This document shows, in pieces, positions 10,762-31,045 of a stretch of DNA of 37,227 bases; positions within the stretch are counted from its first letter, which is position 1, and each line of letters begins with the position of its first letter. The DNA comes from a virus: positions 1 to 37,227 of the IMG/VR virus record IMGVR_UViG_3300017917_000838, one strand, 5' to 3'. A program made the position numbers and the translations under genes. The notes beneath the pieces were generated by a model. That model was not told the DNA's origin. It saw only the letters and a list, made by a program, of their open reading frames with translations, and made no database searches.

Positions 10762-10773
10762 GTAAATCTTTTT

Positions 10774-10781
10774 TATAAATA
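10774..10781 (-). promoter_or_regulatory. Candidate late promoter element TATTTATA before the S74 fibre
   Basis: The coding strand reads GATATTTATAAAAAAG, with the element ending 12 bases before the fibre ATG. The same element occurs before six other gene starts in the window, all on the coding strand. Its complement is the T4 late promoter octamer, so orientation should be tested. Confidence 0.55.
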
Positions 10782-10815
10782 TCTTCAAAAAAATTATTAT
10801 CTCATATTTATATAA

Positions 10816-10865
10816 AGAAAACTAATAAATACTATAATGTATTATAGAAAACTAAAGAAAACTAA
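10816..10865 (+). repeat. Three direct repeats AGAAAACTAA, probable operator
   Basis: Perfect 10-base copies lie at 10816-10825, 10846-10855 and 10856-10865. The last two are in tandem, and the first is 30 bases before the second, so all three lie on the same face of the helix. They bracket the TATAAT at 10833-10838 and end seven bases before the ATG of the ribbon-helix-helix gene. This is the expected layout for an autoregulated operator of such a protein. Confidence 0.7.
10833..10838 (+). promoter_or_regulatory. Possible -10 box for the rightward gene
   Basis: A TATAAT hexamer lies 34 bases before the ATG at 10873, inside the only divergent intergenic region of the window. No convincing -35 is visible at the usual spacing. 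The repeats on either side would place a bound repressor over this element. Confidence 0.4.
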
Positions 10866-10872
10866 ATAAGTT

Positions 10873-11058
10873 ATGAAATACGCAATGTTACAAATCAAAA
10901 AAGAAACCCATGAACTTCTCAAAGAATATTGTGAAGAACACGGGTTTAAAATGGGTAGTTTAGTTGAAAATCTAATTAAGAAACACGTCGGTGTCTCAAA
11001 ACCACAATCTAGTGTGTTGAAGGCTGATAAGGTTATTATTAGAAATCAATCATACTAA
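10873..11058 (+). CDS. Ribbon-helix-helix DNA-binding protein (CopG/Arc-like)
   Basis: This 61-residue protein is the only gene on the plus strand. KYAMLQIKKETHELLKEYC fits a short beta strand followed by helix A, and MGSLVENLIKKH fits helix B of a ribbon-helix-helix fold, with the Gly between helices as expected. The basic tail (KADKVIIRN) has no assigned role. Such proteins are dimeric repressors that insert the strand pair into the major groove, and three 10-base direct repeats sit in its own promoter. It probably represses itself and may affect the divergent fibre gene. Its last four bases overlap the end of the convergent dioxygenase gene. Confidence 0.75.
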   Translation: MKYAMLQIKKETHELLKEYCEEHGFKMGSLVENLIKKHVGVSKPQSSVLKADKVIIRNQSY

Positions 11059-11768
11059 ACTATTCCAGAATAAAAAGATACGATATTGTACTTCATATCT
11101 TTATTTACTTTTTCCACTTCGTGAAATAAATTTATATCCGAATCCAATACTACAAAATTAGGAAATACTGGATTTATTTTTATCTTTTCATTGTTTTTAT
11201 CATATAAAATTAAATGTCCTCCATTTTCTTCGTTCCATTCATTATTTAAAAAATATAGAAAAACACAAATTCTATCTTCTGGTCTGCCATCATCGTGTAA
11301 TTTTATCTCACAATCTTTATCATAGAATTGTAATTTAACATTTTTCATATAAGATTTATAATTCTTATCGGAATAATATTTCCTTGCAAAATTCTCTTGA
11401 AAATTAGATATGACATCACCATTAATTAAATTATCTATTTCTTCATCCATAGAAGTTCCAAAAACCCAAGTTGGATAAAAATCACACTCTTCCATTTTTT
11501 TAATCATATATTCATGTGATTTCTGATAAACAAAATCGGTAACATTTAAATTTCTATCTCTCTTTAAGAAATTTTCATATACAATTTCTTCCATATACGA
11601 TAAGTCCTTAAATTTATACCAATAATCGTATCTAGAAAATCTTTTGATATTTTTATTATCTATTTTCGATTTTATAACTTTAAATTTTTCTAAATCAATC
11701 AAATCTGTATAGTTTTCCAAACTATCCAATAGATAACCATCATTTCTAAATTTTTGAACATCCATCAT
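11055..11768 (-). CDS. 2-oxoglutarate/Fe(II) dioxygenase, prolyl-hydroxylase-like
   Basis: The 237-residue protein has the complete iron and co-substrate set of this superfamily. HDD at residues 158-160 gives the His-x-Asp pair, His216 lies in INLFHEVEK, and Lys226 sits ten residues later, where collagen-type prolyl 4-hydroxylases have Lys to bind 2-oxoglutarate. Between them ICVFLYFLNNEWNEENGGHL matches the double-stranded beta-helix core. The N-terminal 145 residues are helical and not recognised. It should hydroxylate a protein side chain or small molecule using O2. Two ATG codons (11768, 11765) are possible starts. It follows the Mre11-Rad50 gene by 11 bases, and a weak TATTTATT element lies in that gap. 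Confidence 0.8.
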   Translation of the reverse strand: MMDVQKFRNDGYLLDSLENYTDLIDLEKFKVIKSKIDNKNIKRFSRYDYWYKFKDLSYMEEIVYENFLKRDRNLNVTDFVYQKSHEYMIKKMEECDFYPTWVFGTSMDEEIDNLINGDVISNFQENFARKYYSDKNYKSYMKNVKLQFYDKDCEIKLHDDGRPEDRICVFLYFLNNEWNEENGGHLILYDKNNEKIKINPVFPNFVVLDSDINLFHEVEKVNKDMKYNIVSFYSGIV

Positions 11769-11771
11769 AAA

Positions 11772-11779
11772 AATAAATA
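11772..11779 (-). promoter_or_regulatory. Weak late-promoter-like element TATTTATT
   Basis: The coding strand reads TAATATTTATTTTTATG between the Mre11-Rad50 stop and the dioxygenase start. It differs from the common element in the last base, and the ATG is only three bases downstream (six for the second ATG). It could equally be chance in an AT-rich gap. Confidence 0.3.
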
Positions 11780-14700
11780 TTAGAAGTCAATCTTACTAAA
11801 TCCGTTTTCTTTTTTAATTTCAATAAGTCCATCTACGATATCTCTCATTTGTTCTAAGTGAGAAATCATCCATATAAAATCAAATTGAGTTTTAAGATAT
11901 TGCATCATCATAAATAAAGATGATAAATTATCCGCATCTAAAGTTCCAAATCCTTCATCTACTACTAAGAAATTCGGACGAGGTAAATTACATACATTGA
12001 TAAGTGCAACTCTAATTGCCAACCCACTTACGAATTTCTCCATACCACTACACATCTCCAATGGCCATTCCTGGTCTTCGTAAACAATTTTTGCATTGAT
12101 TGATTTACCATCCATTTCCATTGTAATACCAAAGTCTACAACTTGTCCTAAAATGTTATTTATTTCGGATTCAATTACAGGTAAAGCCTTTGTAATTAAC
12201 TCATATGGAATACCATCTCTCTTAACGGCATCTAAATAATAGGAGTATAATCGGTTCTTTTCTTCCAATTCCTTAACATCACTCATCTTTTGTTTGATAG
12301 TGTCTATATAAGTCTGTAATGAGGAAATAGACCCATTTATAGTAGCTATTTGTTTACTAATATCTTTGATATCTGATTCAATTTTCTTTTTCTCAATTTC
12401 TAAGTCTTTGATTTGTTTTTCTAATTCTTTATTGCTTTGAATTGTTTCTTCATTTTCAAAATATCTTTCAATATCTTCTTCTACCTTATCTAATTGAGTT
12501 TGTAATAATTCTTCTTTTGTTTCTAAACCAGACAATTCAGCTTGTGTCTTTTCTTTAATAACATTACCCTTTGACCATTTAGTTTTTAAGTCATTATATT
12601 CTTCCCAATGTGTTTCAATCTCACCAAAGTTTCCAATTTGTTGAAGTAAAGCATCGTAAGCAATATTCAATGTTTCCATTTCTTTAGTTTGACTTACAAT
12701 ATCTTCTTTTGCTTTCATTGCATCTTTTACGAACACATTATCACAACAAAATTTACAACTTGGGTCGTATTTATGATTATCTAAATGTGAAATCTTTCTT
12801 TGATTTGACTCAATTGATTGTTCCAATAATGCAATATAATGTCCCGTGTTTTTCTTTGAATTTAATGCAATATCATATTCTTTTTTAGCATCTTCAATTG
12901 GAGTATCATTAATAGTTTTTCTATTTTCAATTGATTCTGAAAGTTCGGTAAGTAAAGTTGTATATTCTTCAATCTTATCTTCTTTTGTTTCATAATCTTT
13001 AGTTAATTGTTCTAATTGTGATTTTAAGTCATCTCTTTTTGTTTCCAATGTAGGTAAGTCTAAATTAGAATCGATTGGAGTAAGGTTTCTACTTAATTCT
13101 AATATAACACTATCCAATCCATCTTTATCACCATTTAATCTAGATAATTCTTTTTCAAATTCTTTTAATTCACCTTTCTTATCTTTTAACTCATTTGATT
13201 TATCTGCAAGTTCGGTTGTAAAATCGGTTTTCTTAAAATTTTTGATAAGAACTGAAACTTCTTTAATATCTTCAATTGCTGTATCATATAATTTATCAAA
13301 TACATTCAATCCCATAAATTGAGCAAGTAAATCTTTTCTCTCACTTTGGGATTTATCAATGAATATAGAATTATTACCTTGTAAAGATAATGCAGTCAAT
13401 ACAAAATCTTCATACTTACCGACATATTGTTCAATGACTTGGTTTGTATCTCTTCTTTCGGTTCCATTTAATGATACCTTTTCATCACCATCTTCATACC
13501 AAAAGTTTACATCTACTTTTACATTCTTACCTTTGTTAATTGTCTTTGCAGTTCTTTCAATAAAATAATCTACTCCTTCAATTTGAAAATGTAAATAACA
13601 TCTAAAATCAGTCTTACGATTGTTTAAAATGTTTGCAGCTTTGAATGCTCTACTACTTTTATCATAAAGACAAAATGAAATAGCATCAAAGATAGATGAT
13701 TTACCTTGTGCATTTGGTGCAAATAATCCCATCAATCCGTTTAACTTGTTAAAGTCAATTTTGTTATCTTCACCATAAGAGAACATATTGGAGAACTCAA
13801 ATCTAATCGGTTTCCACATAATGTTTCTTAAAGTATCTTCATGTACAATTCTACTATTTACATCTCTGTTAATCTTTTCCAATTCTGCCAAATCATTTTT
13901 ATCAACAAATGGCATCATTCTCTCCACATACTCATTGATTAAAGAGTTTTGATAATTAATGTCTGAAATATCTTCAAAGTCTAATTTATTTTGTCTATCT
14001 CCTGTTTTCTTTTTTGATAATGAGTCTGTTCTAATAATTGTAAAGTCTTCAACACCATATCTCATTTTGATTTCTGCAATTACCTTTTTGGTATCTGCTG
14101 TATCGGTGTTTGACAATCTTACTCTTAAACGAGGATGTTTTGGCATATCATTTACAACTGGAACTTTACCATTGTCAATATCCATCGTATAATAACCATA
14201 ATCATTTGGTAAGTCAATTTCTTCGTAAGTCATTGTGTCCAAATCCCAAGCTAAGAAACCATGTTTACCCAATGTTTCACCAAAGTTTTGTTGAACCAAT
14301 GAACCGGCATAAACTACCTTACAACCTTTCGGACTTATCATCTCCTGGCGTTTATGAATATCACCCAATAAGGCTAAATCAAAACCATCAAATATATCCG
14401 TTGTAAAATGTCTACTACTTACCACATAACCTATATCAGTTTGAGAATTATCAACAGGTCCGTGGAATAATGCAATCTTTTTATCACCAACCAATTTATC
14501 AGCAGTAATCCAATTGTCTTTATTATCCAAAATTGAAAATACTGAAAAATCAACACCACCAATAGAAAATACCTGTGTATCTCTTAGGTAATAAAAGTTT
14601 TCCAATTCTAATGCATCTACGATAGGAGTAAGAACATCCATTCTATCCATATTGTTCATATTACAATCGTGATTTCCGGTAATAAGAATTGTAGGACAAG

Positions 14701-14923
14701 TTTTAGCACACTCTTTGAATAACCAACTAATCTCATTAACTAATTCTGGACTCATTTCCAATTTAGCATGAGCAATATCACCTGCTAAGTAAATGATTGC
14801 ATCTTCGGTTCCTCTTTTACGGATTTCCTCAAACATCAATTCAAATACCTGTCTATACTCTTTGTGTCTTTTTACATTACGAATATGGACATCCGCAATA
14901 TGATAAATTTTCTTTAAACTCAT
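11780..14923 (-). CDS. Single-chain Mre11-Rad50 (SbcD-SbcC, T4 gp47-gp46) fusion
   Basis: One uninterrupted frame of 1047 residues joins two enzymes that are normally separate. Residues 1-340 are an Mre11-type nuclease with the metal motifs DVH (11-13), GD (48-49), GNHD (83-86), His154 and GDIH (187-190). From about 370 comes a Rad50-type ATPase with a P-loop near APNAQGKSS (402-410), a long coiled coil, a zinc hook C-K-F-C at 723-726, the signature CSGMEKF (958-964), the Walker B and D-loop in FLVVDEGFGTLD (985-996) and a switch His1022. The P-loop has Ala where Gly is usual. The complex processes DNA ends and supports recombination-dependent replication in T4. Its start overlaps the primase stop (ATGA). 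Confidence 0.93.
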   Translation of the reverse strand: MSLKKIYHIADVHIRNVKRHKEYRQVFELMFEEIRKRGTEDAIIYLAGDIAHAKLEMSPELVNEISWLFKECAKTCPTILITGNHDCNMNNMDRMDVLTPIVDALELENFYYLRDTQVFSIGGVDFSVFSILDNKDNWITADKLVGDKKIALFHGPVDNSQTDIGYVVSSRHFTTDIFDGFDLALLGDIHKRQEMISPKGCKVVYAGSLVQQNFGETLGKHGFLAWDLDTMTYEEIDLPNDYGYYTMDIDNGKVPVVNDMPKHPRLRVRLSNTDTADTKKVIAEIKMRYGVEDFTIIRTDSLSKKKTGDRQNKLDFEDISDINYQNSLINEYVERMMPFVDKNDLAELEKINRDVNSRIVHEDTLRNIMWKPIRFEFSNMFSYGEDNKIDFNKLNGLMGLFAPNAQGKSSIFDAISFCLYDKSSRAFKAANILNNRKTDFRCYLHFQIEGVDYFIERTAKTINKGKNVKVDVNFWYEDGDEKVSLNGTERRDTNQVIEQYVGKYEDFVLTALSLQGNNSIFIDKSQSERKDLLAQFMGLNVFDKLYDTAIEDIKEVSVLIKNFKKTDFTTELADKSNELKDKKGELKEFEKELSRLNGDKDGLDSVILELSRNLTPIDSNLDLPTLETKRDDLKSQLEQLTKDYETKEDKIEEYTTLLTELSESIENRKTINDTPIEDAKKEYDIALNSKKNTGHYIALLEQSIESNQRKISHLDNHKYDPSCKFCCDNVFVKDAMKAKEDIVSQTKEMETLNIAYDALLQQIGNFGEIETHWEEYNDLKTKWSKGNVIKEKTQAELSGLETKEELLQTQLDKVEEDIERYFENEETIQSNKELEKQIKDLEIEKKKIESDIKDISKQIATINGSISSLQTYIDTIKQKMSDVKELEEKNRLYSYYLDAVKRDGIPYELITKALPVIESEINNILGQVVDFGITMEMDGKSINAKIVYEDQEWPLEMCSGMEKFVSGLAIRVALINVCNLPRPNFLVVDEGFGTLDADNLSSLFMMMQYLKTQFDFIWMISHLEQMRDIVDGLIEIKKENGFSKIDF

Positions 14924-15861: not shown

Positions 15862-15877
15862 CCCCTAAATATACAAC

Positions 15878-15902
15878 AAATATTTGATATTACCAAATAT
15901 TT
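15878..15902. repeat. Perfect 9-base inverted repeat between endonuclease and primase genes
   Basis: The arms AAATATTTG and CAAATATTT flank a 7-base loop. One arm touches the stop codon of the endonuclease gene, and the other lies 17 bases before the primase start. The all-AT stem is weak for a terminator, so an operator or a promoter region (TTTG and TATATTTAG occur here) is as likely. Confidence 0.5.
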
Positions 15903-16330: not shown

Positions 16331-16339
16331 TAAATCAAT

Positions 16340-16639
16340 TTATTTTGTTCTGTCTTTCTTACCGTATGGTGTAGTATCAGTATATCCATTTTTTAAATAT
16401 GAACTACCTCCACCGATTGTTCCACCTGCAAGACCATATCTATTTTTTGTCGGTGAATTGTTTTCAAATGCAGCAATTGCTTTATCGTCTGCGTTTTTTG
16501 TTCCAGAAAAATCAATACCTACCGAATATTTTGTTTTGTCTTTTGCTTTATTTGCATCTACCAAATCTGCAGCAGGTTTACCTTCTTGCCAACCACCTGA
16601 CTTTTGTTCATTGTATAATTCTAAAATAGTTTTAGCCAT
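16340..16639 (-). CDS. Small unknown protein, possibly virion-associated
   Basis: The 99-residue protein begins AKTILELYNEQKSGGWQEG. It is Gly/Lys/Asp-rich and mostly polar, with no membrane segment or Cys, and ends in a basic YGKKDRTK tail. It looks partly disordered, with a glycine cluster (GLAGGTIGGGSS, about residues 69-80). It has its own candidate TATTTATA element upstream and lies between a structural gene and the endonuclease gene. The late-type element suggests a late role such as a head or tail accessory protein, but I do not recognise the family. Confidence 0.6.
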   Translation of the reverse strand: MAKTILELYNEQKSGGWQEGKPAADLVDANKAKDKTKYSVGIDFSGTKNADDKAIAAFENNSPTKNRYGLAGGTIGGGSSYLKNGYTDTTPYGKKDRTK

Positions 16640-16655
16640 ATTATTTGTTTTTAAG

Positions 16656-16663
16656 TATAAATA
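16656..16663 (-). promoter_or_regulatory. Candidate late promoter element TATTTATA before the 99-residue gene
   Basis: The coding strand reads TTATATTTATACTT, ending 16 bases before the ATG at 16639, in a gap of only 29 bases between genes. Confidence 0.55.
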
Positions 16664-16668
16664 TAAGA

Positions 16669-17832
16669 TTATGTATCAAATCGTACAATAAAGTTTACAG
16701 GAATAGCTGGTTCTGACTTTATTGGTTGTGGAAGTTTAGCTACGGCAACCAAATCACAGTTATCATCATATAAACCAATTGTGGTTATAAATGGTGTTAA
16801 GAATGAACCAGTTGTATCTACGGAACTACTTAAATCATAATGTTCAAATCCTGCTAAATTAGTTCCCGTTGAACCACTATATCTATAATCCAAAGTATCA
16901 CCATTTTCTAATATAGATTTTTTACGAATATACTTACTTCCCGCTTTGGTTATTGTTTTATAAATCTTACCATCCGAGCCAGTTACAAATCCCGTTTCTT
17001 TTCCAACTTCTATAATTGCAGATGGGTTTTGAGATACATTAAATTCATCTTCATTTACAATCAACAAGTATTCGTGTTCGTATATTGTTTGTGTCGATTT
17101 AAATGATAAATCCCAATTTGACAATAACAATTCATTAACTGCCCTTGTAATAACAATCAATCCTTGAGTATAGAAAACATTACCTATTTTATTTACACCA
17201 CCCGCACCTTCTAAGAATGGAATATTATCTACTACCATTACACCGGTTTCAATATCAAAACTTATAATGTTCATATCGTAATTATCACCATTATAAGTTA
17301 ATTCAAATATTCCGGATTGAATATCAAAGCCCGCAGTTTGAAATGATGCAGTATATGGTGTTGTGGCAATATCTACAAATGTTATTTCATTTGCTTCTAA
17401 ATTAATTGAGCTAATGATGATAGTATCACCCGCCGCGTCTATTAAATTACCGAAAGTATCATCTACATATGTTTTATCATTATTATTGATAAAAGTTACA
17501 GACCCCTTTTTAATTCCTTCACCAACATATATTTGTGGAATTGAAATTACTTTTGCCGAACCACTTAAAAATCTATCTCTACCGGTTTCACTAATTTCAT
17601 ATGTGTTTTGTTTATCACCAAATCTTAAAAAAGGATTATCTTCTAATTGATTATAAAATTGAGCTCTTAATTGTCCGTATATAGAATTTTTAGGATAATA
17701 ACTGGAAGATACACTTGAAGTTGCGTTTGCTTCCAATAATGTAATTTCCGTAGATGTTTCATCAAAACTCCACTCCTTATGTGCCTTAAAAGGCCTAATA
17801 CTAATATCCGACTTTGGTATTCTTTTTAACAT
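16669..17832 (-). CDS. Virion structural protein with shared GLYDD C-terminal module
   Basis: The 387-residue protein is beta-rich, with no membrane segment. Its last 50 or so residues, including ITTIGLYDDNCDLVAVAKLP and then QPIKSEPAIP, match the end of the neighbouring 17907-19166 product, ITTVGLYDDANELLAVAKTS. The two probably share an assembly or docking domain. A Tyr/Asn-rich middle with repeated short strands (GIFELTYNG, GVMVVDNIPF) is consistent with a tail or neck protein. It lies just after a terminator, and a candidate promoter element ends only six bases before its ATG, implying an almost leaderless message. Confidence 0.65.
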   Translation of the reverse strand: MLKRIPKSDISIRPFKAHKEWSFDETSTEITLLEANATSSVSSSYYPKNSIYGQLRAQFYNQLEDNPFLRFGDKQNTYEISETGRDRFLSGSAKVISIPQIYVGEGIKKGSVTFINNNDKTYVDDTFGNLIDAAGDTIIISSINLEANEITFVDIATTPYTASFQTAGFDIQSGIFELTYNGDNYDMNIISFDIETGVMVVDNIPFLEGAGGVNKIGNVFYTQGLIVITRAVNELLLSNWDLSFKSTQTIYEHEYLLIVNEDEFNVSQNPSAIIEVGKETGFVTGSDGKIYKTITKAGSKYIRKKSILENGDTLDYRYSGSTGTNLAGFEHYDLSSSVDTTGSFLTPFITTIGLYDDNCDLVAVAKLPQPIKSEPAIPVNFIVRFDT

Positions 17833-17838
17833 ATCTAC

Positions 17839-17846
17839 TATAAATA
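17839..17846 (-). promoter_or_regulatory. Candidate late promoter element TATTTATA, six bases from the ATG
   Basis: The coding strand reads AAGATATTTATAGTAGATATG. It begins five bases after the terminator T-run, so it restarts transcription for 16669-17832 and downstream genes. Confidence 0.6.
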
Positions 17847-17850
17847 TCTT

Positions 17851-17881
17851 AAAACTAAAAACCCACCAAATTAAGGTGGGT
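17851..17881 (-). terminator. Intrinsic terminator after the 419-residue structural gene
   Basis: Arms ACCCACC (17861-17867) and GGTGGGT (17875-17881) form a perfect GC-rich 7-base stem with a 7-base loop, unusual in this AT-rich window. On the minus strand the stem is followed by TTTTTAGTTTT. It lies 25 bases beyond the stop at 17907. A T-rich run on the other side would also allow rightward termination, but no rightward gene reads into it. Confidence 0.88.
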
Positions 17882-17906
17882 CATAGTTTTTATTTTTATT
17901 CTCCGA

Positions 17907-19166: not shown

Positions 19167-19175
19167 AGTATTTTA

Positions 19176-19799
19176 TTATTGAACGTAAGTTACTGTTACT
19201 GGAATAGTTTGTGAACCACCCGTTTCGTTACCATAAACTGTAATAGTTGTTTTGATAGTCGAAGTTAAAGATGGGTTTGGAATAAATTTGAAAGATAAAC
19301 CTTTAGCGATTGAAGCTGTTGCAGATACATCGTCTCCGATGAATACTGGAACTGAACCAATATCAGAAGTTACACCTTCACCAATAATATCACCTGCGTT
19401 TTTGTTAGATAATACGATTGTATATCCTAAACTTCTATTTCCTGCAGGAGATGTGGTTGGAGATAATGCAACCTCACCACTTTTTTGATTTACTGCAATG
19501 TTAGGAACACCAAATTCAACAACTGGAATTCTAGTTGTATTTTTTGGTAAAGTTACTAACTTATACTTCATTACTTGAGTTTCATCAGGATTAGCTTCTA
19601 ATACAGGCATATTTTTAATAGCTGCATCATAATAAGCTGAACCCAACGGGTGAGCCGGTTCGTAAAGTGTGTAATCAATCTCATCATCTGCTAATGCAAA
19701 TTGAGTGATGTTTAATCCTTGTCCAGCTGCTAATTTTTCTCTACCTTTTTTTGTTAAGATAGCGTCAACTGTTAATTCGGTATTACTTAAATATCCCAT
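19176..19799 (-). CDS. Virion structural protein, phage tail/neck family (207 residues)
   Basis: The N-terminus MGYLSNTELTVDAILTKKGREKLA and the following FALADDEIDYTLY, with SAYYDAAIKNMPVLEA, form a pattern I recognise from conserved structural proteins of marine T4-like phages. There the start usually reads as a disordered Leu-Thr-x-x-Gly-Arg segment. The remainder is beta-rich and ends TIPVTVTYVQ, perhaps an Ig-like fold. It heads a short transcript with the 419-residue gene nine bases downstream, and its candidate promoter lies 22 bases before the ATG. The exact position in the particle is not determinable here. Confidence 0.65.
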   Translation of the reverse strand: MGYLSNTELTVDAILTKKGREKLAAGQGLNITQFALADDEIDYTLYEPAHPLGSAYYDAAIKNMPVLEANPDETQVMKYKLVTLPKNTTRIPVVEFGVPNIAVNQKSGEVALSPTTSPAGNRSLGYTIVLSNKNAGDIIGEGVTSDIGSVPVFIGDDVSATASIAKGLSFKFIPNPSLTSTIKTTITVYGNETGGSQTIPVTVTYVQ

Positions 19800-19821
19800 A
19801 GTATTGTATTAAATCTTTGTT

Positions 19822-19829
19822 TATAAATA
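19822..19829 (-). promoter_or_regulatory. Candidate late promoter element TATTTATA before the two-gene structural unit
   Basis: The coding strand reads TTATATTTATAAACAAAG, ending 22 bases before the ATG at 19799. With the terminator at 17851-17881 it delimits a two-gene transcript. Confidence 0.6.
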
Positions 19830-19848
19830 TAATAATTTTCAAATTCCG

Positions 19849-22800
19849 TTATTCTACTTCCAAAATTGGTTCAGAGGTATTTCTACCTGTTCTATTTACA
19901 GTCAATGTATTAGGATTAGATACAAATGTTTCAATCGGTGGAGTACCATCTAATGTAGTTGCCGCCGTATTTTTTGAACCTCTAAAGAATGAATTTTCCA
20001 AACCTCTTGTTAAATCCGATGTATTTCTATAATGTGTTTTCAAATATCCATCAACAGGAACTACCGATACAATATTACCTTTTATAACTGGTACTACCGA
20101 ACCAGAAAATGGTTGTATATTCAATTTAGTTTCAGTATATGTTTGTATATCTGATATATAACCACCTCTCGGGTCACCTAATCCATTTGCAGAAGCCGTT
20201 ACAGCAAATTTAGTTACTATTCTTTCTTTTTCTTCTGTGATTAATTGAACTCTAACTCTTTCTTTTACTCTTCTATTATTTTTATCAAAATATGTTCTAA
20301 TAGCAGAACCACTTTGTGCATAAATACCAAATCCAACCATTTCATATGCAGATTGACCAACTATTTCTAAAGGTAATTCAATTTCTGCCAATATAGTTGC
20401 ATCTCCCAACCCAGCATCAATAATTACTTCCTTTTGATAATTTTCAGCAGATGTTAATGTAGTATCTTCGGTATTTATTAGACTATCATATTGATAATTT
20501 TCTGCAATAGTATTTTGTACCGATGCAGTATAAATTATAGTTTCATATTGATTATTCTCTGCAAATAAATTCTCAGATAAATCTGCATTAACTATTGTAT
20601 CATATTGATTGTTTTGTGCCCCAACTAATGTAGTATCTTCGTAATGAATTGTTACTTGTTTTTGATAATCATCACCTGTTGGTTTTTTTCTTGCAATCTT
20701 ACTTCTTTCCAAAATATGTGGTTCAATTAATAAACCGGTAGTTGCCTTAACTCTTGCAGGTAACATCTTCTTAATATCTTCAAACATTGATTTCTCATAT
20801 AGTTTGATTAAGTTAATGTATGCGTAAATGTCTCTACCATCAAATCTTTGGAAATAATAATTTCTCAAAGAATCTAATCTTTTATAATTTGATTTATAAT
20901 CATCCGATGGGTCACCAATATAGTTATCTAAATTTAAACCACCAAAAGCTTTTGCAATATCAATATTCAATTCTTTTGTAGGAGAGAAGAATAAACCAAC
21001 TCTATTAGAATCAACAGGTGATTGGTCAAACGCCTTTTTAGTTGCTCTACTTTTAGATGATAAATCTGCAATTAAAGTTTGTTCTTCGAATCTAACTTTA
21101 TTTGTAGAATATCTAGTAGAACCGGCAGTTGGTATTTCCAATGTAACCGTTCTATCTATAGCTTCAAATTGATAAGGATATGATGTTATATTATCAAATC
21201 CACTTGCGGTTACATATAGTAATGGAGATGGGTTTTCTGAATATAATGATGCAGTTGTTCCATTTTCATAATTATTTCTTGTTAAACTATTTTCAAAATA
21301 TACATTAGTATCAACATTTATTAATGAAGATGTTCCAACCGTTCCATATAAATTTTTAGGATATTCAAAATCCAATCGTAAATATAAATCATCGGTAGAT
21401 GCGGAAAGGTGATTACCATTAATCATTTCAGGAAAAGAAACGTGTTCATAAAATCTTTCAGTATCTAAAACATCAGACCACATACGGAATTCATCTACAC
21501 TACCGGAATAGTTACCACCCAAATATATAGTAGACCCATTGTTCCAATTGGTTGTTGCGGATGCACTAACCGATTGTTGGAATATTGTTTTTTCTTTATT
21601 AGATTGTCTTACATCCAATTTTAATCCATTAGAACCACTACTTACCGATATACCAAAGAAATTACCATTAAATATTGGTAAGGATGTCGTTGAAAGAGAT
21701 GTAGAACCATCGTAATTAAATACAACACTACCAAAATTACTATTATTAGAACCACTTAAACTCACATTCCAACCACTACCACTAATTAAAGTATAGTTTG
21801 AATTTGTTGCAGGTTTTACAAATAATTCTATTGTGTTTGGTTTTCTACCTTTTTCAGTATTCTTCCATTCCATTGAAATAGAAGATGTTAAATTCATTTT
21901 TAACGCAGTAGTTACATTGTCAAACTCAAATTTAGTTTTATTTGTAGTGGTTACTTCTGGTCCACCAAATTCTAAAATTGAAAGATTAGATGATGGTATA
22001 CCATAACAACTTAATAATGCATATACACCCCTTCTTGTACCTTTATGTTTCAATAAGTAAGGTAAGTTATTTACAATTCTTCTCCAAACTTCATATGTTC
22101 TTTTCTTTGCAGGATTTGTTTCTTTAACATTACCATCTTTATCCATTCCAAAAACATAATTCCACAATTGACTATCTGCAGCTAAGTTTTTAGCATCCCA
22201 GTTAAATGATTTTAATACATCAAATAAAAGTTTATCGGAAATACCATCTTTAGATTTATATCCTAAATTTCTACTTTTTTCAATTGACTTAGTGTGAAAA
22301 TATATGTTATCAAAATGTTGTCCTATCATTGAAAAGAATAATAAGAAACTTTGGTTTTCATTATTATTTACAATGTATTGTGGAATATTATTTTGAACCC
22401 AATTTGGATTGTTTACATCATATGATTCTGCCAAATCTATTGTATTGTCATACCAACCTGTGTTATTTATGTTTGTTACCAAAGTAGAATCACTCAATTC
22501 TCTAACATTACCCGTATAAGGCCATGACATAGATGAAGATGTATATAAGAACTTTTCAAATCCATCAAATCCCTGAATTAATTGTTCTTTTTTAATTCTT
22601 TGTCTTTCTATTTCTTTATTTGATTGTAAAGTTCCATTCCAAGAAGCTGTTTGTGCATTTTCAATGGCCTTTTCATATATTTCAATTAATTGTACTTTAT
22701 AAACAAAGTTATCAACTCTTTCTTTAGCAGAAGAGAAGTGTACAAAATTATTCCATGCATATGTAGAACCTGTAACATATTCAATATTTAAGTCATCCGT

Positions 22801-24549
22801 ATTTATTAAAGAACCACTTAAAAATTCCGATATTAAATTTGTAGATGAAGAAACGGAAGAACTTAAAATTAAATCATCTAAAGATTCATAATTTGTTGAT
22901 TGTCCTTTTACAAAATCAACATCTATATTAAAATTTGGCCCCTTAAGTGGAGGACAACTTAATGTATTTTGTTCAGTTAATACAACAGTTTCAACAAGAG
23001 GATTTGTCAATAATCTTGTTATCCAAAATGTTGAATTTTCGGTTATATTTGATGCAAGTGGTGAATACAATTTTAAAATTAAAGATGGAACTTCTTTTGT
23101 AATTACTGTATTACCCAATTCATCGGTTTTTTTATCCGATAGTGTAAAATTATCTTCTTCCCAAGATGAAATTATGATTTGTTCATCATTACCAAAGTTA
23201 GCAAGATGTGTTAAATATTTACTTTCTTTTTCCGGCTCTGTAAATTTTATATTTTGTACAAATGCATCAAACAATGATTTTTTAAGTATATCTTCATCCA
23301 AATTTATTTTCGGAATAGATAACATTGTTTTTATTTCATATTCATTACCAACCAATTCTTGTGAACCTAATCTATTATATGGTTTAAATATTAAGGTTAC
23401 ATTATCACTTCCATTCCATTTTGTAAACTTTGTGGCTAAATCTCTTAAATTTATTTTAAGTTTACCATTTGGTGTTAAATTTTTAAATAATACAATTTTG
23501 GTATTATCTTTTTGTAATAATTCAACATCAATAGACGAAACTGCAAAAGAATTCCACTCTATTTCGTATTCTATTTGAAAATCAGAAAAAGAAGGAATAT
23601 CAATTACACTAGGTGCTATAATTTGTGTAATTGATGGAAAATCGTTTACACTTATAAAATTAATAAGAATATCAGTTCTATCTCCTGTTCCATATAAATT
23701 ACTATAAGGAACTACAATTAATTTTTTACTACCATAAACACCACTAAAATCATTTTTAAATGATAAATCCAAAACACCACTATTAGCGTCTACTCTAATT
23801 TTTTTGTCTGATGTTAAATAAAAATCAACAAAGTCTGCATTAGATGTTTTAAATAAAATACTTACCTTTGTATCCGTATCCGAATCTTTTACATTAAAAT
23901 CATATTTTGTTGTTGGAATAGAAATTATTGGTTTGTCAAAACCAATTTCTTTTTCCATTACAACCGAAAAGGCCAAACCACCAGTTAACAATTCCGATGC
24001 AGGTAATGTATTTGAAATGTTACCAACATTCCATTTTGAAAAATCATTTGGATAAGTTTCGGCTATCTTTCTATTAGCCCAATATATTTTTAATATCTTA
24101 TAATTTGCAGGTAAATCTCCTTTTATATTTAAAGATACATTACCATTTGTAAGATTTGACTTTAATAATTGTTTGTTATCCGTATTATAATCCGATAGAG
24201 TTAATTTATCGGTATCCAATGTAGTATCTCCTGAAACGATGTTGTATTCCAATGTCAATAAATGACCAACTTCATTTTGTAAATTTGATATGAATATTAT
24301 TTCATAATTTATCAAATAATCGGTAATGATTGGATTTGGTGTAGGATTTGTTGGTGTTGGTATTTCAGGTGATGCTGGTGGAACAATATTAACTGGAATA
24401 GGATTAAATTCAACCGTACCTCCACCACCGAACGAAGTTCCAATAAATTCAGTATTTAGATTGTTACTTTGTTCGTCATTTGTGAATGGCCCAACTGGTC
24501 CTTCAATATCAGTATTTTGTCTATATTGTCTATCGTATCTTATTGACAT
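19849..24549 (-). CDS. Giant tail/baseplate structural protein with LamG-like domain
   Basis: The largest protein of the window has 1566 residues. The N-terminal 500 residues contain repeated beta-type segments resembling Ig or fibronectin domains. About residues 820-853 carry WRRIVNNLPYLLKHKGTRRG and then VYALLSCYGIPSSNLSILEF, a segment I associate with large tail proteins. Residues 890-1030 look like a LamG/concanavalin-like jellyroll, with SIYLGGNYSGSVDEFRMW-type ending. Residues 1300-1375 are four 19-residue tandem repeats. The C-terminus is polar. No enzymatic motif is seen. Its candidate promoter lies 11 bases upstream, while baseplate genes lie further upstream. It is likely a peripheral baseplate or fibre-attachment protein that may bind carbohydrate. 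Confidence 0.7.
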   Translation of the reverse strand: MSIRYDRQYRQNTDIEGPVGPFTNDEQSNNLNTEFIGTSFGGGGTVEFNPIPVNIVPPASPEIPTPTNPTPNPIITDYLINYEIIFISNLQNEVGHLLTLEYNIVSGDTTLDTDKLTLSDYNTDNKQLLKSNLTNGNVSLNIKGDLPANYKILKIYWANRKIAETYPNDFSKWNVGNISNTLPASELLTGGLAFSVVMEKEIGFDKPIISIPTTKYDFNVKDSDTDTKVSILFKTSNADFVDFYLTSDKKIRVDANSGVLDLSFKNDFSGVYGSKKLIVVPYSNLYGTGDRTDILINFISVNDFPSITQIIAPSVIDIPSFSDFQIEYEIEWNSFAVSSIDVELLQKDNTKIVLFKNLTPNGKLKINLRDLATKFTKWNGSDNVTLIFKPYNRLGSQELVGNEYEIKTMLSIPKINLDEDILKKSLFDAFVQNIKFTEPEKESKYLTHLANFGNDEQIIISSWEEDNFTLSDKKTDELGNTVITKEVPSLILKLYSPLASNITENSTFWITRLLTNPLVETVVLTEQNTLSCPPLKGPNFNIDVDFVKGQSTNYESLDDLILSSSVSSSTNLISEFLSGSLINTDDLNIEYVTGSTYAWNNFVHFSSAKERVDNFVYKVQLIEIYEKAIENAQTASWNGTLQSNKEIERQRIKKEQLIQGFDGFEKFLYTSSSMSWPYTGNVRELSDSTLVTNINNTGWYDNTIDLAESYDVNNPNWVQNNIPQYIVNNNENQSFLLFFSMIGQHFDNIYFHTKSIEKSRNLGYKSKDGISDKLLFDVLKSFNWDAKNLAADSQLWNYVFGMDKDGNVKETNPAKKRTYEVWRRIVNNLPYLLKHKGTRRGVYALLSCYGIPSSNLSILEFGGPEVTTTNKTKFEFDNVTTALKMNLTSSISMEWKNTEKGRKPNTIELFVKPATNSNYTLISGSGWNVSLSGSNNSNFGSVVFNYDGSTSLSTTSLPIFNGNFFGISVSSGSNGLKLDVRQSNKEKTIFQQSVSASATTNWNNGSTIYLGGNYSGSVDEFRMWSDVLDTERFYEHVSFPEMINGNHLSASTDDLYLRLDFEYPKNLYGTVGTSSLINVDTNVYFENSLTRNNYENGTTASLYSENPSPLLYVTASGFDNITSYPYQFEAIDRTVTLEIPTAGSTRYSTNKVRFEEQTLIADLSSKSRATKKAFDQSPVDSNRVGLFFSPTKELNIDIAKAFGGLNLDNYIGDPSDDYKSNYKRLDSLRNYYFQRFDGRDIYAYINLIKLYEKSMFEDIKKMLPARVKATTGLLIEPHILERSKIARKKPTGDDYQKQVTIHYEDTTLVGAQNNQYDTIVNADLSENLFAENNQYETIIYTASVQNTIAENYQYDSLINTEDTTLTSAENYQKEVIIDAGLGDATILAEIELPLEIVGQSAYEMVGFGIYAQSGSAIRTYFDKNNRRVKERVRVQLITEEKERIVTKFAVTASANGLGDPRGGYISDIQTYTETKLNIQPFSGSVVPVIKGNIVSVVPVDGYLKTHYRNTSDLTRGLENSFFRGSKNTAATTLDGTPPIETFVSNPNTLTVNRTGRNTSEPILEVE
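20425..20652 (-). repeat. Four tandem 57-base repeats coding 19-residue units
   Basis: Four contiguous units of exactly 19 residues end in NNQYDT, NNQYET, NYQYDS and NYQKEV, each preceded by a Thr/Asp/Glu-rich stretch. A partial unit precedes them (DDYQKQV). The repeats fill residues 1300-1375 of the 1566-residue protein. Confidence 0.88.
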
Positions 24550-24560
24550 TTATTGTTTTT

Positions 24561-24568
24561 TATAAATA
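24561..24568 (-). promoter_or_regulatory. Candidate late promoter element TATTTATA before the 1566-residue gene
   Basis: The coding strand reads GAAATATTTATAAAAAAC, ending 11 bases before the ATG at 24549. It fills the short gap after the 423-residue gene. Confidence 0.6.
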
Positions 24569-24581
24569 TTTCTATTTAATT

Positions 24582-25853: not shown

Positions 25854-25865
25854 AATTTATTTTAT

Positions 25866-26972
25866 TTACCAACTAGGATATGATTTATTATGTTGAATAT
25901 TGATAGTGCTATCAAATGTTTTTGATTCACTTGTTCCATCATTTCTAACAATTTTAATAACAGTTTGTCCCTTTTTATTGGTACTATGATTATTGTAATA
26001 ATCTCTCCATTTAAAGTTTCCACCCATTTTAAAATCTATTTTTTCTGTCTGTGATGGACTGATTGTGAATTTTGTTTTTGGAACATATAAAAAATCTGCA
26101 GGTAATATTTCAACACTTATTGGGTCTTTATCATTATTTGTTATTGATATAGAACTACCATATTTAAATTCAGTATCACCTGTTTTATTATTAACAGCCA
26201 AATATATAATTGGTTTACCCTCTTCAGCTTTTGGATTAAATGATACTAAACCAACTTTGTTAATTAACTCAGCACCTGCAGCCAATGCAGATTGTTTAAG
26301 TGACTCCACAATTGTTGATTGATTTTGAACTGCACCCAATTGTGATTGTAATCCATCTATTATTGAGTTTAAAGAATCAATTTGTTTAATTAAAGCTTCA
26401 ATCTGTGCCTTAAATCCTTCATTTTGTGATTGTAAAGAACCTCTTAATATAGATTCATCTACCGACTTTTGAAGAGATATTGTTATTTGATTTGCAAAAT
26501 CACCGATTGTAGCCGTTAAAGTATCTATTTGATTTGTTAATAAATCATTTATTTGTTCAATTGAAAGTCTATTATTTATTTCACTTTGAACTTGTGCCTT
26601 TAATGATTGTACTTCTGATGTTAAATCGGAAATTGTTGTATTCAAATTTGTAACTTGTACTCTTAAATCTGCACTTGCACTTAATTCTAAATTATAAATG
26701 GGTCTTGGTACTAAATCTAAATTTGAATTTGGAATATTTGGTGCCAATTCCTTTACCTGAACATTAACAGCTTTTATTAATTCTTCGTTATCATATTTAG
26801 ATTTTGTCAATCCTTTAAATACCAAAGAAGATGCAATATTGGAATTATCTACCACATTAACACCATATTCATTTCTATTTATTGCAGCAGAACCAGATAC
26901 ACTTAAAATTGATTCTAATTGTTTATCTTTTTCTTGTTGTAATTTTATTGATATTGCCTCTAAATTAGTCAT
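25866..26972 (-). CDS. Coiled-coil virion protein with beta-rich C-terminal domain
   Basis: A 368-residue protein. Residues about 105-225 hold a long heptad-patterned helix with alternating hydrophobic residues, for example LRVQVTNLNTTISDLTSEVQ and later IEALIKQIDSLNSIIDGLQS, interrupted by short breaks. This suggests a trimeric stalk. The last 120 residues are beta-rich (TEFKYGSSISITNNDKDPI, then FKWRDYYNNHS) and could form a small globular tip. The gene starts four bases after the DNRLRE-like gene stops. A short fibre or whisker attached to the baseplate is a plausible role. Confidence 0.6.
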   Translation of the reverse strand: MTNLEAISIKLQQEKDKQLESILSVSGSAAINRNEYGVNVVDNSNIASSLVFKGLTKSKYDNEELIKAVNVQVKELAPNIPNSNLDLVPRPIYNLELSASADLRVQVTNLNTTISDLTSEVQSLKAQVQSEINNRLSIEQINDLLTNQIDTLTATIGDFANQITISLQKSVDESILRGSLQSQNEGFKAQIEALIKQIDSLNSIIDGLQSQLGAVQNQSTIVESLKQSALAAGAELINKVGLVSFNPKAEEGKPIIYLAVNNKTGDTEFKYGSSISITNNDKDPISVEILPADFLYVPKTKFTISPSQTEKIDFKMGGNFKWRDYYNNHSTNKKGQTVIKIVRNDGTSESKTFDSTINIQHNKSYPSW

Positions 26973-26975
26973 TTA

Positions 26976-28058
26976 TTAAACTATTTCAAATGTTAATTTT
27001 TCGTCTATAATAGTAGATATTCCACTTTCAACTATTTTCAATTTTAATCTATAAGTTCTACTCATTGGTAATGTTGATAAATCTATTATAAAATAATTTG
27101 AAGTAGAATCACAACTTACTTTAGTATACTCACCAAATGGAAATATAATTTCACCTGTCTTATAATCTTCTATTTGATAGTAAGTTGTTGTTGGTAAATA
27201 TTTAGTTTGGTCGTATTCGAATGTTGTTCCAAATGATTTTAAAGGATACATATCTCTACCTTTAACTCTTATTTTTATTTTTTGGTTTTTAGGATATTCT
27301 TTTTTCAAATTTGAAACTACAACTTTATAATCCGAATCCGATGCAGAACCTGTTACGGGTGTTAAACTTCCAGTAACAAATGAACTATCATCCCATACTA
27401 ATTCTAATTTAGGTTCGTATATTGTATTAGTTTCTTTTGAAAAGAATTTAAGAACACCATAATCTAATGTATTTGCTTCATTTTCTAAACTATGATGAAC
27501 AATTAAACCATTATTTGGTAAAGAACCACTAACCCATTGATGCATAATATTTGTTACATCCATTCTAACATCATCCAATTCATATGAATAAGATTGAGAT
27601 GCAGAACCCGTTATATACCAAGTACCACCTTCTGCATTTGCAGAACCCGTTGTACCACTAACATAAACTGCAGTACCGGCAGTTACATTTTCTTGCCATT
27701 TATCTACACCATTTCTATATTTCCAACTAATACCATCCGTTGTAATATTATCAAATTTTGTACCAGTTCCCATTATCCAACTTTGAGATACAGCATTTGC
27801 ATAAATTGTATATTCCAAAGGTATTTCTTCTGAATTTGCCGCTTTTAAATTTAAAAAAACTTTCCAATTGTTATTTGCAATTGTTTGTATATCCGTTTTA
27901 ATTGAACCCGTATCAAATTTTAATAAAGTTCTAGCTATATCCATAGTAGAACCATAATAAAGTTTACCTACTTCTAATATTTCATCTCTACCAGTATTCT
28001 GGTCGGGTTGTTGTAAGTAGATACTTGCATCGTATGATGATGTATAAAATTTATGCAT
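26976..28058 (-). CDS. DNRLRE/CBM96-like virion protein
   Basis: The 360-residue protein contains ARTLLKFDTGSI early. Later come VRMDVTNIMHQWVSGSLPNN with GLIVHHSLE, and then VLKFFSKETNTIYEPKLELV. The order of a Leu-Lys-Phe strand, an Asp-x-Thr-x-x-x-x-Trp segment and a Gly-Leu-Ile strand with a closing Pro-x-Leu-x-Val strand is that of DNRLRE/CBM96-type beta-jellyroll domains, here in a virion setting. The last 110 residues form another beta domain with no recognised family. Its ATG overlaps the gp6/J stop by one base. Sugar binding is possible from the domain family but not shown. Confidence 0.68.
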   Translation of the reverse strand: MHKFYTSSYDASIYLQQPDQNTGRDEILEVGKLYYGSTMDIARTLLKFDTGSIKTDIQTIANNNWKVFLNLKAANSEEIPLEYTIYANAVSQSWIMGTGTKFDNITTDGISWKYRNGVDKWQENVTAGTAVYVSGTTGSANAEGGTWYITGSASQSYSYELDDVRMDVTNIMHQWVSGSLPNNGLIVHHSLENEANTLDYGVLKFFSKETNTIYEPKLELVWDDSSFVTGSLTPVTGSASDSDYKVVVSNLKKEYPKNQKIKIRVKGRDMYPLKSFGTTFEYDQTKYLPTTTYYQIEDYKTGEIIFPFGEYTKVSCDSTSNYFIIDLSTLPMSRTYRLKLKIVESGISTIIDEKLTFEIV

Positions 28059-30058
28059 TATAAAGCCCTCCCTTTTATGTCTTTATTTGGATATTTAACT
28101 TCGAATATTGAAGGGTCTAAAGATGGATATACAATCTTACCTTTAGTAGCTTCATCTATGTTATATCTATTTGTTGAATAATTTCCGTCACCACCACATA
28201 AGTTTGAAATTTTAACGGATGGTACACTCATAACTCCTTCTACATTTGCCAATATCAATTCTATTTCTGAAATGTTAATTGGTTTATTGAATGTCCAATT
28301 ATCTATATTAAAATAATTTTGAACTTCAGTTAAACATTGTGTTATAACTTCTCTTTTATTATAATTTGAATAACAAATTACTTCAAAATCAACTCCTATG
28401 TTTATAATAAATCCGTTTATAATATTTACACCATCGGTTAACATTCTATATTCGGATATATAAGTTTTTAAATTTTGTTTAACAGCATCATTTAGATTTG
28501 TTAATTTTTTATTAGTATCATATCCCAAAACATACATATTGATTGCAAATGGATTGTTTACTTCCGCAATTGCAGTTTTCTTTTGAGTAAGATATTTAAT
28601 TAATTCTTTTTGGATATCCTGTTTTGATAATCCTTTGATTGAATCCACCAAATTCGTAAACTCCGTAATATTTTTAGGGTTTGCAAGAATTGATGCGGGT
28701 GAATTATTGTCTATCTCACCATCCGGACTAACATATACTTTTGCAACACTACCATATCTTTCTGGCATTGACATCGCTCTAACTACATAATCCTCTTTTG
28801 TTACTGCTCTATTTTGAGAACCAAATGTTGCCAATGCATTTTGTCTAATCTCTTCAATTGATTCGGAACTTCTACCTCCAGTTGCAGCTGTTGAGTTTTC
28901 AACCGCTACTGATGTTTTGGTGTCGTTATATGAATTTAATTTATCATCTGGAATAGATAATAAATCATCATCAAAATCTATTCTTCTTATTTTTATTAAA
29001 TCTCCTTCATTAACATTTGATTCAACACCACCACCAATCAAATATTTTATAGTTAATGTTTTTCCTGCCGGTGCAATACCAAATGTATTTGTTTTTAAGA
29101 AATTAGATGGGTCAATTCCTTGATTTAATCTTTGAACAGAATTTGCCAATCCCAATCCAACATTTTTTGAATTTGGTAAAATGATTTCATCATCCAATGA
29201 AACATCTCCACTACCAAATTGTAAATCAATTGTGTTATCCGAATTTACTTTAACACAAAATCTTCTTGGAACTTTTTGAACTTCTAAAACATATGGAACC
29301 GAACCTGAGTATTGATATAAATCACTATTATATTGTGTATTAGGTTTTTCTATAAAAATACTTTCTTGTGCCAAATATGGTACTTCATAGTATTTGTTAT
29401 TATCTGCATCCGTTACTGATATTATTTGTATAATATTTGTATCAGGTAAAGTTATTGAAGGATAATTTGTATCGGAATCCATTGTAATGGTTGTACTAAT
29501 TTCTTCGGCAGATATTGCTTTTACTTTTTTACTTATTAAATATTTTGAAGGAACACCGGTTACATCTCTTTCATAAACTTCAATTTCTCTACCGTCTTCG
29601 GATGAAAAATCAACAGCATCTATTGTTCTAAATACAATTGATGTATTTGTATTTGATTCAACTTCCATCCCATCCTTTATTCTTAAATAATAACTTGCAT
29701 CAGGAACATTTCCATTTGCAGGAACTAACTGATAAACAATGAGTTCAGAAACAGCTGGTGTTGTAACTTTTGGTTTATAACCCATTTGTTGTGCCAATGC
29801 CATAACATTCTTCCTTTCAGTTGCATGTACTAACATTGATTCTTTTAATTGTATATCTTGATAAAAAGATAACATATCACCAATAGCGGATGCCTGGTCT
29901 ATGAATATTGTACCAGGAGAAGCTTCGGAAAAATCAGAATATTGATTTGGAAAATATGTTTTGGTAAATTCAACTAAATTTTGTTTTAAAGTAGCAAAAT
30001 CTTTACCGACATATGATAAATCTTTATTTCCTATATTATTTAAAGGTTTAATTGCCAT
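28058..30058 (-). CDS. Baseplate wedge protein, gp6/baseplate J-like
   Basis: The 666 residues are almost exactly the length of T4 gp6. The N-terminus has DLSYVGKDFATLKQNLVEF and then FSEASPGTIFIDQASAIGDM with a helix LSFYQDIQLKES. This is the characteristic J-family start. A central segment with TATGGRSSESIEEIRQNALA and FGSQNRAVTKEDYVVRAM is the most conserved J core. It forms the iris-like ring of wedges around the central hub of contractile tails. It stands directly after gp25, as in many contractile tail clusters. Confidence 0.92.
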   Translation of the reverse strand: MAIKPLNNIGNKDLSYVGKDFATLKQNLVEFTKTYFPNQYSDFSEASPGTIFIDQASAIGDMLSFYQDIQLKESMLVHATERKNVMALAQQMGYKPKVTTPAVSELIVYQLVPANGNVPDASYYLRIKDGMEVESNTNTSIVFRTIDAVDFSSEDGREIEVYERDVTGVPSKYLISKKVKAISAEEISTTITMDSDTNYPSITLPDTNIIQIISVTDADNNKYYEVPYLAQESIFIEKPNTQYNSDLYQYSGSVPYVLEVQKVPRRFCVKVNSDNTIDLQFGSGDVSLDDEIILPNSKNVGLGLANSVQRLNQGIDPSNFLKTNTFGIAPAGKTLTIKYLIGGGVESNVNEGDLIKIRRIDFDDDLLSIPDDKLNSYNDTKTSVAVENSTAATGGRSSESIEEIRQNALATFGSQNRAVTKEDYVVRAMSMPERYGSVAKVYVSPDGEIDNNSPASILANPKNITEFTNLVDSIKGLSKQDIQKELIKYLTQKKTAIAEVNNPFAINMYVLGYDTNKKLTNLNDAVKQNLKTYISEYRMLTDGVNIINGFIINIGVDFEVICYSNYNKREVITQCLTEVQNYFNIDNWTFNKPINISEIELILANVEGVMSVPSVKISNLCGGDGNYSTNRYNIDEATKGKIVYPSLDPSIFEVKYPNKDIKGRAL

Positions 30059-30060
30059 TA

Positions 30061-30498
30061 TTAATTATTTACATTTATTTGTAGTGTTTCTGATAAAGTT
30101 GGGTTTGATACTAATGAAAATTTTATATCCAAAAATATTTTATTATTGTCTATATCATTGTTATCATAATCAAACACAATTTGGTCTATTTTTATATATG
30201 GCATCCATATGGATACGGCATCTAATATTACAGACTCTATTCTATTTTCAATTAAACTTTCGTCTATTTGTTCAAATATTATTTTCCAAATGTCACAACC
30301 AAATTCTGGTTCCATAATTCTTTCTCCTTTATGAGTTAGAATTAAATTTTTTAAACTATCCTTTGCTTGAGTTAGTGTAGTATAATTAACTGCAAAAATA
30401 CCACCCGAATCGGAACTTCTATTTATTCCAATTCCAAGTATTTTATAATCATTTTCCGTTAAATCGGTAACATTAACTTTACCTAACTCTATTGCCAT
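30061..30498 (-). CDS. Baseplate wedge protein gp25-like
   Basis: The 145-residue protein contains LTHKGERIMEPEFGCDIWKI, with the family's diagnostic EPEFG at residues 63-67, and FEQIDESLIENRIESVILDA after it. This is the GPW_gp25 fold, shared by phages and type VI secretion, which joins the baseplate to sheath assembly as part of the wedge core. Its start overlaps the upstream stop by one base. Gp25 next to gp6/J strongly supports a contractile tail. Confidence 0.95.
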   Translation of the reverse strand: MAIELGKVNVTDLTENDYKILGIGINRSSDSGGIFAVNYTTLTQAKDSLKNLILTHKGERIMEPEFGCDIWKIIFEQIDESLIENRIESVILDAVSIWMPYIKIDQIVFDYDNNDIDNNKIFLDIKFSLVSNPTLSETLQINVNN

Positions 30499-31013
30499 TA
30501 TTTAAATCTCTTTACTAATTCCGAATAATCTCTTGTTAATGCCTTTATTGTAGCATCTTGTAATTCATCACCAGTTGATTGAAATTGTTGTGGAATATTT
30601 TGAGGTACTTCCATATCTCTATAATCCATTGTTTCCCAATCATCTTCCATTCCTCTTTGTGGTTGTAACATATCCAATACACTACCACCAGTCATTCCTG
30701 GTGTTCCACCCTCTGCTCTTTGTGCAGATGTGAATGGTGTTGTCATATTTAAAATCTCATTAATCATAGGGTCTTTTGTGAACTCCTTTGTTTGTTGAGG
30801 TCTTTGTGTTTGTTGAACAGGTTGGGGTTTTCTAACAGCCACATCATATTGACTAACTTCAGTTAAATCTTTTAATGAAGGTGTTGATTTTTTTTGTGTG
30901 TTTAATGTAACCGCACCAGATTTAATAAGTTTAGCAACTTCTTCTTTTACTTGTTGTTTAACTTCGTTTTTAACAACTTCTTTGATTAAAGTTAATAAAA
31001 TGTCTGATTTCAT
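30498..31013 (-). CDS. Unknown protein, polar and partly disordered
   Basis: The 171-residue protein starts with an amphipathic Lys/Glu-rich helix (LLTLIKEVVKNEVKQQVKEE) and then a Gln/Pro/Thr-rich stretch (KPQPVQQTQRPQQTKEF). A Gly/Met-rich segment, TPGMTGGSVLDMLQPQRG, leads to a short C-terminal helix ending in YSELVKRFK. The disordered middle bounded by helices is common in phage scaffolding or chaperone proteins, but no family is recognised. A candidate late promoter element lies 24 bases upstream, so it may head the gp25-gp6 transcript. Confidence 0.6.
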   Translation of the reverse strand: MKSDILLTLIKEVVKNEVKQQVKEEVAKLIKSGAVTLNTQKKSTPSLKDLTEVSQYDVAVRKPQPVQQTQRPQQTKEFTKDPMINEILNMTTPFTSAQRAEGGTPGMTGGSVLDMLQPQRGMEDDWETMDYRDMEVPQNIPQQFQSTGDELQDATIKALTRDYSELVKRFK

Positions 31014-31037
31014 AATAATTGTTTGTATATGTTTAGT

Positions 31038-31045
31038 AATAAATA
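31038..31045 (-). promoter_or_regulatory. Late-promoter-like element TATTTATT before the baseplate wedge genes
   Basis: The coding strand reads CAATATTTATTACTAA, ending 24 bases before the ATG at 31013. The last base departs from the common element. The gap of 53 bases is among the longer ones in the tail block. Confidence 0.45.

Follow-up and report, generated by a model that had tools for sequence, protein, structure and literature searches.

The element [A/C]TATTTAT[A/T] is probably (at a probability of about 0.78) the -10 box of a distinct class of late promoters, read in the usual orientation, in a lineage of T4-like phages. In T4, late promoters carry TATAAATA at positions -13 to -6, which gp55 reads together with gp33 and the gp45 clamp. 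We propose that the element would act as a stand-alone box with no upstream element, opening late transcription units as TATAAATA does in T4, and that initiation would occur about 4-5 nt after the octamer. The most likely reader of the box is a gp55-like sigma factor that the phage itself encodes, acting on the host RNA polymerase, while early genes would use promoters of the host primary sigma, TTTG-N20-TATATTTG. Some elements are positioned such that the A of the ATG would be the first transcribed base, and these would give rise to leaderless late mRNAs.

The window (the whole stretch of DNA analysed, a 37 kb virus record) belongs to a T4-like phage. Its minus strand carries 33 genes, and its plus strand a single small one (10873-11058). 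The recognisable genes encode gp6-like and gp25-like baseplate proteins, a tail fibre, a fused SbcD-SbcC, a primase, endonuclease I, a peptide deformylase and a carbamoyltransferase. A single 1047-aa ORF (11780-14923) combines the recombination nuclease subunits that resemble SbcD and SbcC (gp47 and gp46 in T4), and auxiliary genes encode a NolO-like carbamoyltransferase (33697-35400), the peptide deformylase (36379-37014) and a 2OG-Fe(II) oxygenase (11055-11768). The product of the plus-strand gene, 61 aa long, is homologous to Arc-like repressors (PHROG 3180, E 1.5e-6) and is 88-95% identical in close relatives.

A preliminary description of the window had placed seven sites on the coding (minus) strand, 3-24 bases before an ATG, almost always in short gaps rather than in genes and in a single orientation relative to the genes. 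All seven were recovered at these spacings (Table 1), along with two that it had not listed: a TATTTATT in a minus-strand gap and a plus-strand TATTTATA ahead of the sole plus-strand gene. On the coding strand, TATTTAT[AT] occurred eight times in gaps and four times in genes (Fisher 2.5e-12), and its sense-to-antisense ratio in gaps was 8:1. The corresponding gap/gene counts were 5/2 for TATTTATA (Fisher 2.5e-8) and 7/0 for ATATTTAT (Fisher 3.3e-13), although the gaps total only 679 bases. The total number of TATTTATA octamers in the window was at chance level (10 on both strands versus 12.4 expected); the signal lies in their position and orientation. The mechanically called ORF 7282-10788 has as its first codon a TTG that lies upstream of the 10774 element; its true start is probably the ATG at 10761, so that this element falls outside the gene.

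Table 1. Proposed late element sites and associated features in the window (G numbers denote related records)
Feature	Position	Strand	Context and conservation
TATTTATA	10774..10781	-	12 nt before ATG 10761 of the tail-fibre-like gene 7282-10761; 11-13 nt in G001-G005 and G007, 20 nt in G013
TATTTATA	10805..10812	+	60 nt before the Arc-like gene 10873-11058; 50-60 nt in G001-G005 and G007, 26 nt in G013
TATTTATT	10824..10831	-	Same divergent gap as 10774 and 10805; kept in only some relatives
TATTTATT	11772..11779	-	ATG of the 2OG-Fe(II) oxygenase gene follows after 3 nt; leaderless start predicted; identical spacing in G007
TATTTATA	16656..16663	-	16 nt before gene 16340-16639; also at the G002 homologue (39% identity)
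TATTTATA	17839..17846	-	6 nt before gene 16669-17832, a spacing found also in four relatives
Terminator-like hairpin CCCACC-TTAATTT-GGTGGG and T run	17857..17880	-	Immediately upstream of the 17839 element
TATTTATA	19822..19829	-	22 nt before gene 19176-19799; kept from 97% to 43% protein identity, including immuto and Mel-JY01
TATTTATA	24561..24568	-	11 nt before gene 19849-24549; kept though the relatives' upstream sequences are unrelated
TATTTATT	31038..31045	-	24 nt before gene 30498-31013; kept in eight relatives
Candidate gp55-like late sigma, 234 aa	35403..36107	-	Region-2-like part at about residues 17-110 and extra helical C-terminal domain at 140-234

The window's sigma-like protein matched hundreds of environmental contigs and, at 35-45% identity, three kinds of deposited genome: Flavobacterium phage immuto (NC_055915, 160 kb, complete), Microcystis phage Mel-JY01 (PP395634.1, 190 kb, complete) and LR756508 (484 kb). 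A baseplate protein matched the same genomes, and the gene order around the sigma gene is shared. Virion genes of the gp17, gp20 and gp23 types are T4-like in immuto, Mel-JY01 and LR756508.

Seedless counting of 8-mers in gaps versus genes was applied to 13 related records, comprising ten larger environmental contigs, immuto and parts of Mel-JY01 and LR756508. ATATTTAT was the top gap 8-mer in 9 of the 13 (G012 and G014 were among the exceptions), and TATTTATA ranked second in immuto. The gap density of TATTTATA exceeded that in genes by 8-141 fold across the relatives, mostly by more than 30 fold, with a weaker signal in G001, G012, the LR756508 stretch and the non-structural half of Mel-JY01. 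Thus, over the approximately 1.2 Mb of relatives in which the gap and gene counts suggested in the preliminary description were made, the octamer was not equally frequent inside genes. Among all TATNNATA centres, only TT was strongly enriched in gaps, and the gap/gene counts summed over the window and G001-G005 were 63/47 for TATTTATA versus 12/43 for TATAAATA. Tested against the T4-type late consensus (TATAAATA, or NATAAATA/CTAAATA), the element did not conform, and for this reason we do not file it under that consensus. As a control, the same counting method recovered TATAAATA from the T4 late region. No TATTTATA was seen in the gaps around gp55 of T4-like controls (Vibrio, Pseudomonas and two cyanophages), stretches that are too poor in late genes to display their own motif well.

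Like T4 late promoters, the element stands in the sense orientation ahead of late and structural genes. In the immuto structural cluster, TATTTATA occurred 14 times in gaps and never in genes, and stood ahead of the genes for terminase, portal, tail sheath, tail tube, baseplate hub and tape measure; a number of sites in immuto lie before non-structural genes. At orthologous genes, the spacing of the element was nearly constant while the flanks had diverged, in one case over the entire upstream sequence. Genes within operons lacked it in the window and mostly also in the relatives, with few gains. Terminator-like hairpins lay just upstream of 23 of 163 elements, compared with 18 of 1317 other gene starts (P 8e-13). 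The enrichment, the fixed orientation and the conservation before orthologues lend good support to the suggestion of the preliminary description that the lineage uses a distinct late promoter.

A second promoter class was present in the same genomes, with -33/-7 boxes of the form TTTG(G)-N20-TATATTTG or TATATTTAGG. Repeated early promoters, TTTG(G)-N20-TATATTTG or TATATTTAGGTATCAATAATTAAAA, were found ahead of small genes in immuto, G009, G012 and G014 and are of the host Bacteroidota primary-sigma type, for which the consensus is TTTG/TAnnTTTG (PMC6847099, PMC9723704). Beyond 75 kb of immuto lay 28 of the 42 late sites versus 1 of the 20 early ones (P 5e-6); the two classes were more mixed in the environmental contigs than in immuto.

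That early class bears on whether the element is itself a variant of the -7 box (TAnnTTTG) of Bacteroidota primary-sigma promoters and is read by host sigmaA, which would make the phage sigma irrelevant. The element and TATATTTG, which stands at early genes of the same phage genomes, have ATATTT in common, and the hosts are probably Bacteroidota. However, when examined for TAnnTTTG and a -33 TTTG, the late element had neither: the near-invariant G is always A and is followed by T, a T two bases ahead of the element was found at only 41% of sites, and no -33 box or other conserved upstream (-35) element was detected. Since a genuine host-type class with strong -33/-7 boxes (host consensus, PMC6847099) exists separately in these genomes, we consider a host -7 variant unlikely. 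A role in RNA, with the element serving as a translation enhancer or an mRNA processing site instead of a promoter, would accord with its closeness to start codons and with the disuse of Shine-Dalgarno sequences by Bacteroidota, but its distance from the ATG can be anything between 3 and 40 nt, it is found after terminators, and most intra-operon genes, which also need translation, do without it; this makes such a role distinctly improbable.

The preliminary description had also raised the possibility that the lineage reads the T4 element in the reverse orientation, and TATTTATA is the exact reverse complement of the T4 octamer TATAAATA. Because TAT..ATA is self-complementary, changing AA to TT in the centre of TATAAATA also yields its reverse complement, which renders a flipped reading unnecessary. 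Moreover, the orientation of sigma fixes the direction of transcription, and the element, equal to TATAAATA with two central bases changed, keeps a fixed orientation to the downstream gene, often with a terminator upstream, with start codons downstream at fixed distances and with a -10-like distance to the predicted start. We therefore reject reverse reading as highly improbable. Finally, gaps are about 83% A+T and the overall octamer total in the window is at chance, as would be expected if AT-rich gaps simply produced TATTTATA. Yet Markov-simulated gaps yielded 0.4-1.0 sites compared with the 5-8 observed, other TATNNATA centres were not enriched, and the element is conserved across diverged relatives; a chance origin is thus rejected as practically negligible. 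Together, these results show that the elements form a genuine late-promoter-like class that is deeply conserved and altered in its core, and whose likely reader is a distant gp55-like sigma.

The probable start site of this late class was located from base composition and start codon positions. With octamer positions numbered from 0 at the first T, and with the sites limited to those at least 10 nt from their ATG, we found a purine peak at position 11-12, compared with position 13 in T4 (nine sites); position 11 was a purine at 84% of sites in the environmental relatives and at 89% in immuto. The octamer-ATG distances were bimodal: the ATG followed at 3 nt in 14 cases and at 4 nt in 7, hardly any sites fell at 7-10 nt, and a broad class began at 11 nt. 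With orthologues collapsed, the 3-4 nt class held 16 sites versus 8 expected (P 0.006), and the 7-10 nt void held 2 versus 14 expected (0 of 5000 shuffles). From the purine bias and the clustering of start codons 3-4 nt after the octamer, we infer a start 4-5 nt downstream, in place of the approximately six bases suggested previously, and predict a class of leaderless mRNAs; on the simplest reading, transcription would begin at position 11-12, which in the close class is the A of the ATG itself. Leaderless mRNAs are reported to make up 5.5% in a Flavobacterium (PMC9723704).

The likely reader of the element is the product of gene 35403-36107, which had been described as a gp55-like factor. That call was right, as indicated by weak late-sigma and region-2 matches in relatives that fall exactly on this gene and by a sigma-like predicted fold, with the qualification that the similarity is remote: Pfam and PHROG scans of the window protein gave nothing significant. 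In the complete immuto genome, the sole late-sigma match was gp118, the orthologue of this protein, and no second sigma factor was found there with the late-sigma and sigma-region-2 families; weak sigma-region-2 matches in two relatives coincided with the same gene. Profile comparison with gp55 gave P 0.0015 over residues 17-105 (HHalign probability 16%), and the predicted structure (pLDDT 81) matched sigma factors, best over region 2, with a best Foldseek E of 0.011 and none below 0.001. A PDB search with a four-sequence profile returned chance-level matches only. The tyrosine equivalent to Y97, which stacks on A-12, was invariant in 41 homologues. These weak but consistent signs point to homology with sigma region 2, a mark of the gp55 family, and the protein would be a candidate to read the TATTTATA element. 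An H95-to-F change was rejected as the cause of the altered bases, because F also stands at this place in the gp55 of cyanophages, whose late promoters are NATAAATA. Residues 140-234 (35403-35690) form a conserved helical domain absent from T4 gp55, with a pLDDT of 94 when folded alone and no structural match in the PDB. Considered as sigma region 4 or as gp33, this domain gave no significant sequence or structure match, and no T4-like hydrophobic/acidic tail (the sliding-clamp-binding motif) was recognised in the C-terminal alignment, which was inspected by eye only.

We also searched for the T4 helper proteins. For gp33 (phrog_254), matches were found in T4 and Syn30 and none in immuto, Mel-JY01, LR756508 or four large contigs. 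Searches for gp45 (PF02916, phrog_223) gave no convincing match in immuto, Mel-JY01, LR756508 or the large contigs, although very divergent clamps could escape them; the T4 clamp was found by both families and that of Syn30 by phrog_223. A family A DNA polymerase is annotated in immuto. Since T4-type gp33 and gp45 were undetected, very divergent versions aside, the lineage may drive its late genes without clamp coupling. A further, rather doubtful possibility is that a single fused late sigma, combining a gp55-like region 2 with a C-terminal domain that replaces gp33, serves TATTTATA promoters with a leaderless subset in the absence of any sliding clamp. A review of T4 states that a fused late sigma has not been found in nature (PMC2988020).

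The proposed promoters share with T4 late promoters a single -10-like box, the lack of a -35 element, a position ahead of structural genes and, putatively, a phage sigma of the gp55 kind acting on host polymerase. They differ in the central AA, which is TT in this lineage, and in a box about 2 nt nearer the predicted start; the sigma has an extra C-terminal domain, unlike that of T4. With position 11 taken as +1, the conserved ATATTTA falls on T4 ATAAATA (-12 to -6), with mismatches at -9 and -8, whereas direct alignment of the octamers puts the differences at -10 and -9. In T4, gp55 has pockets that take up the flipped bases -12, -9 and -8 (PMC7892883), so that one flipped base, -9, is changed in both registers. 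In immuto, C precedes the octamer at 42% of sites, which fits the position-11 register less well. Lineage-specific box variants with a diverged gp55 have been described for the late promoters of Aeh1 (CTAAATA) and cyanophages (NATAAATA) (PMC1524935, PMC2984593); in those boxes the variation is confined to the 5' edge and the AAATA core is intact, whereas here the core itself is altered. A literature search, outside whose reach most subscription papers lay, found no paper naming a TATTTATA late element.

The lineage is a widespread group of T4-like phages whose hosts are probably Bacteroidota, as argued by the Bacteroidota-type early promoters in the phage genomes. Mel-JY01 is recorded as a Microcystis phage; its nearest relatives infect Bacteroidota or carry Bacteroidota promoters, and the recorded host may merit a check. 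T4 late promoters are a textbook system, and their core is altered here across a large environmental lineage with a cultured member, the isolate Flavobacterium phage immuto. The element allows late units to be annotated in hundreds of environmental phages and offers a natural change of specificity that is useful for studying base choice by sigma region 2. The lineage also seems to lack the clamp and the co-activator that couple late transcription to replication in T4, which makes the dispensability of clamp coupling testable; if the fused arrangement holds true, its sigma would be the fused late sigma noted as missing from nature (PMC2988020).
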